A stretch of DNA of 64,000 nt. Source: Staphylococcus sp. NRL 16/872 (lineage in GTDB: Bacteria > Bacillota > Bacilli > Staphylococcales > Staphylococcaceae). The notes below the pieces were generated by a model. It saw nothing but the letters and a program-made list of their open reading frames with translations. It was not told the DNA's origin and did not search any database. A program made the position numbers and the translations under genes. Location: positions 2,108,001 through 2,172,000 of the forward strand of contig NZ_CP119327.1 of assembly GCF_022815905.2 (NCBI RefSeq), read 5' to 3'. Shown piece by piece: positions 35,542 through 44,742 of this stretch; the stretch's first letter is position 1, and the number at the start of each line of letters is the position of its first letter.

Positions 35542-36384
35542 TTATTCATCTGCTAGGAAACCATTTCCATATACATCACGAACATCATGTACTACAAGAA
35601 ATGCATTTTCATCTAACTCTCTAATAATACGTTTTGCTCGAGAAACTTGTGTTTTTGCAACGACTACATACAAAATATCTTTTTCTTCTCTACTATAATA
35701 ACCATGGCCATCTATAATCGTAAGACCACGTCCCACTTGTTCATCGATTGCCTTAGCAACTTCTTCTGGTTTATTGGAAATAATCGTCATTGCTTTTTTC
35801 GTGTTGAGTCCTTCAATGACATACTCCATTACTTTTGTGCCAATGTATAATGAGATAACTGTTACGAGTGCCTTATGCAATGGAAGTACAGTTAATGATA
35901 TTAACACTACTAATAAATCAAAGAATAAAAGCGCATAAGCAGTACTTACCTCTAAATATTTATTGGCGATACGTGCCAGAATAGTCGTGCCAGCTGTAGT
36001 ACCTCCAGCTAAAACGATAACACCAATACCTAAACCTACACTGATCCCACCAAATACGGCATTAATAATGACATTTCCAGTTTCTACGTGCCAAGACTCT
36101 GTTAAATCTAAAAACACTGAAATAAGTACAGTAGCTATAATAGTTAAGACTGTACTTTTTTTACTTAAGAATTTATAACCCAAAATAATTAACACTGCGT
36201 TAGCTACAAAATTGGTTATAGAGGGAGAAATATGAAAAGCGTAATACAATACAATTGCAATACCGGTTACGCCTCCCTCTCCTAAATTACCAGAAATAAT
36301 AAATGCGTTTACCCCAGCTGAAAATATGAAAGAGCCTAGTATAACAAGTAATAAATCTTTAATGTTTTTATTCACACATACCAA
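35542..36384 (-). CDS. YitT-family membrane protein (DUF161 + DUF2179)
   Basis: The 280-residue protein has an N-terminal membrane part of five or six helices (about 1-180, with GNLGEGGVTGIAIVLYY and GGTTAGTTILARI) and a C-terminal cytosolic DUF2179 domain (GHGYYSREEKDILYVVV, VHDVRDVYGNGF). The family is widespread in Firmicutes; its function is unsettled and transport is suspected. The ATG is preceded by AGGGG. It is monocistronic. Confidence 0.88.
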   Translation of the reverse strand: MVCVNKNIKDLLLVILGSFIFSAGVNAFIISGNLGEGGVTGIAIVLYYAFHISPSITNFVANAVLIILGYKFLSKKSTVLTIIATVLISVFLDLTESWHVETGNVIINAVFGGISVGLGIGVIVLAGGTTAGTTILARIANKYLEVSTAYALLFFDLLVVLISLTVLPLHKALVTVISLYIGTKVMEYVIEGLNTKKAMTIISNKPEEVAKAIDEQVGRGLTIIDGHGYYSREEKDILYVVVAKTQVSRAKRIIRELDENAFLVVHDVRDVYGNGFLADE

Positions 36385-36596
36385 CCCCTTTTATTGTATT
36401 ATTACTAAAAATGTTAGCATATTCTATGGTAACGCCACAATATAACGTTCAAAAAAATGATAAACAAATAAAAATTAAATATTTTAACCTATAATAATTT
36501 ATTTTATATTATCATCTCAGAGATTTACTCAGAGCCGGATATAATCTAAATTCAAGAACAATTTATAAAGAAATAAAAATTTTCTGAATTTTTTTG

Positions 36597-36625
36597 TTTA
36601 CTTACATCTTTCTTTCTGCTATAAT
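36597..36625 (+). promoter_or_regulatory. SigA-type promoter of the candidate small RNA
   Basis: -35 TTTACT (36597-36602), 17-base spacer, -10 TATAAT (36620-36625). No open frame follows within 170 bases, so the promoter is unlikely to serve a protein gene. Confidence 0.72.
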
Positions 36626-36631
36626 GTGTAT

Positions 36632-36806
36632 AACTTCTTAATAAGAGAAGTTATCTCCTTTGTGTTGTTTATAGTAACAAAACAAATTTTGCTCGAAGTA
36701 CTGTGACAGTACCTAGTCCTTACCGTTACAAGTACATTAATATTCATTTCCCATAAAAACCAAGTATATAGAGTGTCTCCTCACTCTACATACTTGGTTT
36801 TTATCG
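36632..36806 (+). ncRNA. Candidate small regulatory RNA, about 170 nt
   Basis: The predicted start near 36632 follows the promoter at 36597-36625. The RNA would open with a 5' hairpin (TAACTTC / GAAGTTA, 36631-36653), immediately followed by UCUCCUUU (36654-36661), complementary to a Shine-Dalgarno sequence. A second hairpin GTACTG-TGA-CAGTAC lies at 36698-36712. The RNA ends at a strong terminator (36755-36802). No open frame with a ribosome site is present. The neighbouring yitT and nupC genes are both on the other strand. I cannot name a known homologue. The 36385-36596 stretch before it shows only AT-rich promoter-like DNA. Confidence 0.7.
36755..36802 (+). terminator. Terminator of the candidate small RNA
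   Basis: AAAAACCAAGTAT-x-TAGAGTG / CACTCTA-x-ATACTTGGTTTTT, a 20-bp stem with one mismatch and a 6-base loop, then TTTTTATCG. Confidence 0.88.
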
Positions 36807-36816
36807 TTTGTTAGAT

Positions 36817-36893
36817 TTTTGTTCTTCATTTTCAAAGAAAAAAGAGCGAATCTGAAATCATGTAAGGTAAGCATAATTTCAAACTTGCTCTTT
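36817..36893 (-). terminator. nupC terminator with conserved tail
   Basis: Imperfect stem AAAGAGCGAATCTGAAAT / ATTTCAAACTTGCTCTTT (36841-36893). On the minus strand the T-run is followed by TTTGAAAATGAAGAACAAAA, like those at 29598 and 32389. Confidence 0.8.
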
Positions 36894-36918: not shown

Positions 36919-38148
36919 TTACCATGCGAATAAACCTACAAAAGCTGCTGTTAATAATGATACAAGAATACCTGATAAAAGCATCATTGGTACGTATTTA
37001 GAGACGAAATCTGAAGTCTTCTTATCCACGATTCCTTTAAGCGTACCAATAATCATACCAAGTGTTGAGAAGTTAGCAAATGACACTAAGAAAGTTGAAA
37101 TAACCGCTTGTCTATGCGGACTATAAGATTTAACTACTTTAGTAATCTCACCCATTACAACAAATTCATTTGTGACAATCTTCTTGGACATTTGTTGAGC
37201 CACAATCCATGCTTCTCCCCAAGGTAAACCAAGTAATAATGCAAATGGATACATGAAGACACCTAAGATTTGGTTTAATCCAAAGCTACCTTTCATGCCA
37301 ATCCAACCGCCTACTAAACCAGTGATTAAATTGATAAAGCGATCTAATAAATCAGCTAAAGCTACGAAACTGATAACGAACGCGATAATAATTAACACTA
37401 ATTTACCTGCATTTAATACAGAATCTCCTAAGAATGAGAAGAATGGTTGGCGTTCAATTTCAGCATTGTTAATGCTATAAATGACATCTTCACGTTCTTC
37501 AACCGTCACTGGATTCAAGATTGAAGTTACAATAATGGCATTAATAATATTTAGCGGAATCGCTGTCAATACCAGTTCTCCAGGAATCATTTGTACATAA
37601 GCACCAACAATCGCACCTGAAATAGAACTCATTGACATCATAGCTAGTGTTAAGACACGTGTTTCTTTTATGCGTTTTAATTGTTCATTTGAGACCGCTA
37701 AAGCCTCAGTATTTCCTAAGAACATCATTTCAATACCGAAAAATGACTCAAACTTAGGTTGACGTGTAATTTTAGCTAATACCCAGCCAATACCACCGAT
37801 AATCTTCGGTAAAATATTGAAATACATTAATACGTCAAATAATGGCACAACAAGCAAGATTGGGAATAAGGCGCTAATAGCCATATCCATTTGTTTACCA
37901 CTTGTAAAACTACTAAATGCAAAGCCAGTTCCAGTATGTGCTGATTGTATCACCCAAGCGATTGCTGCAGCTAAGCCTTCAACAATTGATCTACCAATTT
38001 GGAAATACACGAAGAACCAGGCTAGAAAAAGGTTCAAAATAACAAGAATCAAAATTGATTTCCATTGGATATTTTTGCGATCTCTTGAAAATAAAACTGC
38101 AATTCCCAAAAACACAAGTAACCCAATGATATTAATGATTAAAAACAT
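36919..38148 (-). CDS. nupC: NupC-family nucleoside transporter
   Basis: This 409-residue concentrative nucleoside transporter carries typical text: GIEMMFLGNTEALAVSNEQLKR, MSMSSISGAIVGAYVQMIPGE, FANFSTLGMIIGTLKGI. About ten helices; it imports nucleosides with protons (family knowledge). It is monocistronic and leftward, with its own terminator. In S. aureus a gene of this family also lies next to abcA. Confidence 0.92.
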   Translation of the reverse strand: MFLIINIIGLLVFLGIAVLFSRDRKNIQWKSILILVILNLFLAWFFVYFQIGRSIVEGLAAAIAWVIQSAHTGTGFAFSSFTSGKQMDMAISALFPILLVVPLFDVLMYFNILPKIIGGIGWVLAKITRQPKFESFFGIEMMFLGNTEALAVSNEQLKRIKETRVLTLAMMSMSSISGAIVGAYVQMIPGELVLTAIPLNIINAIIVTSILNPVTVEEREDVIYSINNAEIERQPFFSFLGDSVLNAGKLVLIIIAFVISFVALADLLDRFINLITGLVGGWIGMKGSFGLNQILGVFMYPFALLLGLPWGEAWIVAQQMSKKIVTNEFVVMGEITKVVKSYSPHRQAVISTFLVSFANFSTLGMIIGTLKGIVDKKTSDFVSKYVPMMLLSGILVSLLTAAFVGLFAW

Positions 38149-44193: not shown

Positions 44194-44592
44194 TTATTTA
44201 ACATCTTTACCGTATAATTCTTGTTTAATTTTAGTTGTTGAGATACCTTCTGTACGTTTTAGATAAATCACTTCACATTTGTCTTTTAAGAAATCAAATT
44301 CGCCTTCCCAGTCGTGCCCCATTACAAAAACATCAACATCATAACGATCAACATCGATTTCTTTTTGACCCCAGTCACTTTCCGGAATAACTAAATCTAC
44401 ATAGCGAATAGACTCTAACATCATTTTACGTTGTTCAAAATCATAATAAGATTTTTTGTTCTTAATTTGATTAAACTCATCTGTGGATAACGCAACGATT
44501 AAGTAATCGCCCATTTCACGAGCTCTTCTTAATAACTCTATATGGCCATAATGTAATAAATCATAAGTACCATAAGTAATGACTCTTCTCAT
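44194..44592 (-). CDS. tagD: TagD: glycerol-3-phosphate cytidylyltransferase
   Basis: The 132-residue enzyme makes CDP-glycerol, the activated donor for TagB and TagF. GTYDLLHYGHIELLRRA contains the nucleotidyl transferase HxGH motif, and RTEGISTTKI is the second signature. The length equals that of S. aureus TarD. It is downstream of tagX with a gap of about 150 bases, so it probably has its own promoter. Confidence 0.96.
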   Translation of the reverse strand: MRRVITYGTYDLLHYGHIELLRRAREMGDYLIVALSTDEFNQIKNKKSYYDFEQRKMMLESIRYVDLVIPESDWGQKEIDVDRYDVDVFVMGHDWEGEFDFLKDKCEVIYLKRTEGISTTKIKQELYGKDVK

Positions 44593-44742
44593 TATTTGTT
44601 ATCTCCTTTACAAAATTTTTAATGAATTTTCATAATCTTAATTTAGCATAAATAAAATTTACATACCATCTTTTATAAAAACAATCATTTTAGGTAATCT
44701 GATAACACTTTTCTTGGAATTTAAATCTTTAATCTAAGAGAA

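Follow-up and report, generated by a model that had tools for sequence, protein, structure and literature searches.

RsaD between the yitT-like and nupC genes of Staphylococcus sp. NRL 16/872 and the mismatch between its distribution and that of its published target alsS

What is the RNA predicted between a yitT-like gene and nupC in Staphylococcus sp. NRL 16/872, and on which messages would it act? The interval was analyzed as part of a 64-kb stretch of DNA (here, the window), and the original prediction described it as holding a trans-acting small RNA that matched no named RNA and might be undescribed. An Rfam search of the 64-kb window returned a single family above its gathering score, RF01819, which is RsaD, and the whole genome contains one copy above the cut-off. 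The locus is made up as follows.

35542..36384, minus strand: neighboring gene for a YitT family membrane protein (PF02588, PF10035)
36614..36802, plus strand: RsaD (Rfam RF01819), matched over positions 1-189 of the 189-position model, which includes the -10 region, at 220.5 bits against a cut-off of 50
36919..38148, minus strand: neighboring gene for a CNT/NupC-type nucleoside transporter (PF07662, PF01773)

Identity and architecture of the RNA

In a named S. aureus record, YitT, RsaD, and NupC occur in the same order, and the RNA is 86.6% identical over 202 nt; the genomic place of our locus, the interval between the yitT-like gene and nupC, thereby agrees with that of S. aureus RsaD. By its YitT protein, the closest named relative is S. 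croceilyticus (98%). The transporter scores 318.9 bits with TIGR00804, below the cut-off of 442. Since the match to RF01819 is full length and the neighbors are those of S. aureus, the RNA is not an undescribed one: the candidate is real, yet it is this species' copy of an RNA already described, and the end-to-end match refutes the earlier statement that no named RNA fits. This removes a false claim of novelty and gives the locus a name and a mechanism. RsaD has already been named among the noncoding RNAs of S. haemolyticus in a published paper, and a review gives the length of the S. aureus RNA as 176 nt.

Within the interval, the elements of the transcription unit are arranged in the following order, and the structural assignments derive from the predicted fold and from the consensus fold of the aligned copies.

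36578..36592, plus strand: CodY-box-like site AATTTTCTGAATTTT, just before the -35 element, matching 13 of 15 positions of what we take to be the consensus, AATTTTCWGAAAATT
36597..36625, plus strand: SigA-type (sigma-70) promoter, TTTACT-17-TATAAT extended by a TG; conserved among the 70 aligned copies
36632..36802, plus strand: predicted RsaD transcript of about 171 nt, its start placed from the -10 element
36632..36652, plus strand: hairpin 1 (predicted and consensus folds)
36653..36664, plus strand: conserved motif AUCUCCUUUGUG, the anti-Shine-Dalgarno seed of the original prediction, partly paired in the predicted fold
36659..36686, plus strand: hairpin 2 (predicted and consensus folds)
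36698..36735, plus strand: hairpin 3, with the loop CCUAGUCCUU at 36712-36721; 9 of 11 consensus pairs changed on both sides
36740..36752, plus strand: unpaired segment AUAUUCAUUUCCC, whose predicted partner, from fold and pairing, is the alsS ribosome site
36755..36802, plus strand: predicted Rho-independent terminator, a 20-pair stem ending in UUUUU

Much of the earlier description of this unit was borne out. The promoter is present, with 10 of 12 matches and a TG before the -10 element; UCUCCUUU lies at 36654-36661; the terminator is indeed strong, as judged by its 20-pair stem and UUUUU end; and 36632-36802 is noncoding, with no ATG and at least one stop in each of the three frames. The claimed layout of two hairpins and a terminator held for the terminator but not for the hairpin count, as the fold gives three. 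The predicted transcript has the properties expected of RsaD, namely, a length near 176 nt (about 171 nt as read from the sequence), its own terminator, and the lack of coding potential. Its predicted folding energy is -49.1 kcal/mol, whereas 200 shuffles averaged -22.98 kcal/mol (z-score, -7.66) and none of them folded as well, and the last 8 nt of AUAUUCAUUUCCC are all open with a probability of 0.918. Promoter-like sites between 35000 and 38500 are not in excess (14 versus a shuffle mean of 17.3), and the terminator scan did not list the 36755-36802 stem, although the fold shows its 20 pairs; the case for the RNA rests on structure and conservation. On the minus strand, 36755-36884 gives a weak RsaD match (37.9 bits, under the cut-off), which is mainly the terminator palindrome read backwards; being nearly palindromic, the terminator may work toward nupC as well.

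These observations bear on two other accounts of the locus. That it encodes a new staphylococcal sRNA with UCUCCUUU as its seed draws on the near invariance of that seed but is almost certainly wrong, given a full-length RsaD match far above the cut-off and neighbors as in S. aureus. It is also very improbable that the RNA is a cis-acting element, i.e., a leader or 3' untranslated region of a neighboring gene, or an antisense of a small minus-strand ORF. A 42-aa minus-strand ORF (36619-36747) does overlap the RNA, and the S. aureus record annotates a minus-strand "hypothetical protein" inside its RsaD match. However, the RNA has its own promoter and terminator, its base pairing is conserved across copies, and a 2018 paper treats RsaD as a bona fide sRNA and the small ORF opposite it as one for which no expression is reported. 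Both neighbors are confirmed to lie on the other strand, which supports the earlier view of a free-standing RNA that is the leader of neither. The locus is almost certainly rsaD, whose RNA of about 171 nt would be repressed by CodY and would use its C-rich segments to block the ribosome-binding sites of its targets.

Conservation of RsaD and of its CodY-like box

At an E value of 0.001 or lower, RsaD was matched in 80 of 84 Staphylococcus genomes (66 above the cut-off) and, in the family-wide search, in 80 of 108 genomes, all of them Staphylococcus, as against none of the 24 genomes from four other genera of the family, with the caveat that both searches used stricter filters, by which weak matches can be lost. 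Of the four genomes with no match in the genus search, one (G030) has a copy recognizable by eye that gave no Rfam match at an E value of 0.1; a second (G074) has a copy visible by eye that scores 29.2 bits, under the cut-off; and in a third (G011) the contig end examined contains no RsaD. In the fourth, G042, an RsaD core stands beside repeats, and the RNA may have been interrupted by a repeat element; these repeats (locus L258) weakly match the Rfam family S35 (RF02894), under the cut-off. Among 37 loci collected by their YitT protein, the RsaD core motif was found upstream of yitT in 35, comprising all 35 Staphylococcus loci, and was absent from the Salinicoccus and Defluviitaleaceae loci. 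A 160-kb S. aureus record labeled a plasmid (NZ_OX441725.1, 4468-12668) carries yitT, RsaD, nupC, an ABC transporter, and pbp4 and is perhaps a mislabeled piece of chromosome or a large capture.

Motifs were compared in 70 of the 80 matches (the copies from G001, G019, G035, G052, G063, G064, G069, G073, G076, and G083 were omitted). The most conserved stretch is ATCTCCTTTGT, kept in all 70 copies, followed by ATCTCCTTTGTG in 69, ATTCATTTCCC in 65, TTTTGCTC in 63, and CTAGTCCTT in 55. For covariation we used an alignment of 46 of the 70 copies (41 distinct), in which 96.0% of the cells of the consensus fold are paired, a figure favored by the derivation of the structure from the same alignment. 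Changes on both sides occur in 16 of the 31 consensus pairs, compared with a mean of 7.9 after shuffling (none of 500 shuffles reached as many) and with 4 to 8 pairs in controls slid by one to three columns. Nearly all of this covariation sits in hairpin 3 (9 pairs) and the terminator (6 pairs); hairpin 2 is nearly invariant and so contributes little information. The compensatory changes support the RsaD fold and, together with the invariance of the C-rich ATCTCCTTTGT, give the conservation in relatives that the original prediction had named as its test.

The CodY-like box is equally persistent. On the plus strand of the window, which was the strand scanned, AATTTTCTGAATTTT is the only site with at least 13 of 15 matches. 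A box at the fixed place scores 11 to 13 of 15 in 65 of the 70 copies (scores of at least 11 occur at 0.55% of background positions), and the remaining 5 copies have one of 12 to 13 of 15 at the same 41-base spacing from the -10 element. As a sequence match to the consensus that we assumed, a box thus precedes the -35 element in this copy and in all 69 others examined, and both the SigA-type promoter and the CodY box expected of RsaD are present. Reviews report the repression of RsaD by CodY in S. aureus, including by electrophoretic mobility shift assay (EMSA), and a CodY motif at RsaD in at least 15 staphylococcal species; the box is also noted in the 2018 paper. Published expression data describe rsaD as raised by 8.5 and 6.0 log2 units upon induction of two (pp)pGpp synthetases, as derepressed without codY, and as reduced 185.8-fold in a strain null for (p)ppGpp.

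By analogy, CodY would occupy the box at 36578-36592 and repress the promoter as long as the cell is well supplied with branched-chain amino acids and GTP. A drop in these would allow synthesis of the RNA (about 171 nt), whose open C-rich segments would then pair with target mRNAs at their ribosome-binding sites and prevent translation. We infer both CodY repression and alsS inhibition for this species, the latter being the less certain of the two.

alsS and other candidate partners

Reviews give alsS, which codes for alpha-acetolactate synthase, as the published direct target of RsaD in S. aureus, where the RNA blocks its translation and so redirects the overflow of pyruvate away from acetoin and toward acetate. 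We scored the pairing of RsaD with the alsS leader, including opening costs, by means of a home-made script in 28 of the 29 alsS-bearing genomes (the RsaD of G035 was left out), and the background for ranking in every genome was the set of 60 gene leaders of this window (61 with alsS). In 25 of the 28 genomes, the top-scoring pairing close to the start codon joins the AUUCAUUUCC segment to the ribosome site, the exceptions being G008, G043, and G058. Three genomes with a short, S. aureus-like RsaD form 13 unbroken pairs with alsS at about -15.5 kcal/mol, and a fourth with such an RsaD (G004) reaches -8.7 kcal/mol. Against this common background, the alsS leader ranks first in 9 and among the top three in 11 of the 28 genomes, with a median of 4.5 of 61. 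In the present genome, the AUAUUCAUUUCCC segment is predicted to pair with alsS positions -14 to -3 with one mismatch at -6.8 kcal/mol, a weak pairing that ranks 9 of 61. On this modeling, pairing gives good support for alsS control in some members of the genus, whereas in this species such control is no more than a possibility.

The earlier reading of a trans-acting sRNA with unpaired C-rich motifs was right as to the type of RNA and its genus-wide conservation. As to the seed, it was right in part: UCUCCUUU is C-rich and belongs to the most conserved segment, but it is partly paired in the predicted fold, and the predicted pairing with alsS uses about 36740-36752 in 25 of 28 genomes. The most conserved segment of RsaD differs from the one predicted to contact its published target.

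The distributions of the two genes also diverge. With TIGR02418 above its cut-off as the marker, alsS is found in 29 of 84 genomes compared with 80 of 84 for RsaD, which is matched in all 29 alsS genomes and in 51 of the 55 others. As 51 genomes have RsaD without alsS, control of alsS cannot be its general function. Copies from genomes without alsS retain ATTCATTTCCC in 38 of 42 cases and ATCTCCTTTGT in 42 of 42, whereas ATATTCATTTCCC is found in 21 of 28 copies with alsS versus 3 of 42 without, a difference uncorrected for relatedness that may follow clades. The retention of RsaD and its motifs where alsS is lacking suggests that in many species the RNA probably has other targets or partners. 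Whether the genus-wide function is indeed something other than alsS, with alsS a lineage-specific target and an older target or partner, probably engaged through AUCUCCUUUGUG, accounting for the retention of the RNA, we consider an even call. We found no statement of this mismatch in the literature searched, a body that takes in few of the subscription papers. It lends itself to testing: nearly every Staphylococcus has RsaD, whereas about a third of the genomes searched encode its published direct target.

Several searches were directed at such partners. A search for perfect complements of the 12-base core, CACAAAGGAGAT, gave 98 matches in 82 of the 84 genomes and exactly one in 68; as 69 of 70 RsaD copies contain the 12-base core sequence, RsaD accounts for most of these matches, and exact matching over the 84 genomes yielded no genus-wide perfect partner of the core. 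The complement of the alsS-pairing segment, GGGAAATGAAT, matched in at least 80 of the 84 genomes, RsaD's own copy included, and beyond that copy the numbers, among the matches listed, resemble those of a backward control. A wobble-tolerant pattern placed before ATG matched 29 times in three genomes, and a BLAST comparison of the 27 products longer than 20 aa found no family common between genomes. The best of the 61 leaders in this genome is that of tagD (about 44.2-44.6 kb of the window). By eye, the ribosome site of the tagD-like gene, TGTAAAGGAGATAAC (44590-44612, minus strand), can form 15 pairs with the RsaD segment GUUAUCUCCUUUGUG, including three wobble pairs. As a conserved target, tagD was rejected: 6 of 25 relatives use the 5' core segment, and totals over all 25 range from -10.1 to 0.2 kcal/mol.

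Two further accounts accept the RNA as RsaD and differ on its partners. It is conceivable, though we lean against it, that alsS is no real target here, other mRNAs being regulated through the conserved C-rich segments; the rank of 9 of 61 for alsS in this genome and the persistence of RsaD, with ATTCATTTCCC in 38 of 42 copies, in genomes without alsS would fit this. Against it, in 25 of 28 genomes, among them the present one, the best pairing joins the same RsaD segment to a similar position of alsS, alsS comes first in 9 of 28, and the limited target searches produced no alternative conserved target. We consider it unlikely that the C-rich segments owe their conservation mainly to docking by another sRNA, RsaI. 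Reviews mention binding of RsaI to RsaD, and one of them reports, for S. aureus, that a G-rich stretch of RsaI binds CU-rich tracts of RsaD.

Comparison with known staphylococcal RNAs

The closest known counterpart is S. aureus RsaD itself, with which this copy shares its neighbors, the CodY-like box, the TATAAT element, and the motifs ATCTCCTTTGTG, TTTTGCTCG, CTAGTCCTT, and ATATTCATTTCCC. It differs in a longer terminator stem with an extra UCUCCU in the loop, and, unlike the short S. aureus-like RsaD of the three genomes with 13 unbroken alsS pairs, its predicted pairing with alsS contains one mismatch. More broadly, RsaE is another C-rich staphylococcal sRNA that, like RsaD, works through an unpaired CU-rich segment aimed at ribosome sites. 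The same likeness is described for RsaI in a review. Both RsaI and RsaE differ from RsaD in being separate sequence families, and of the three, only RsaD exceeds its gathering score in the window.
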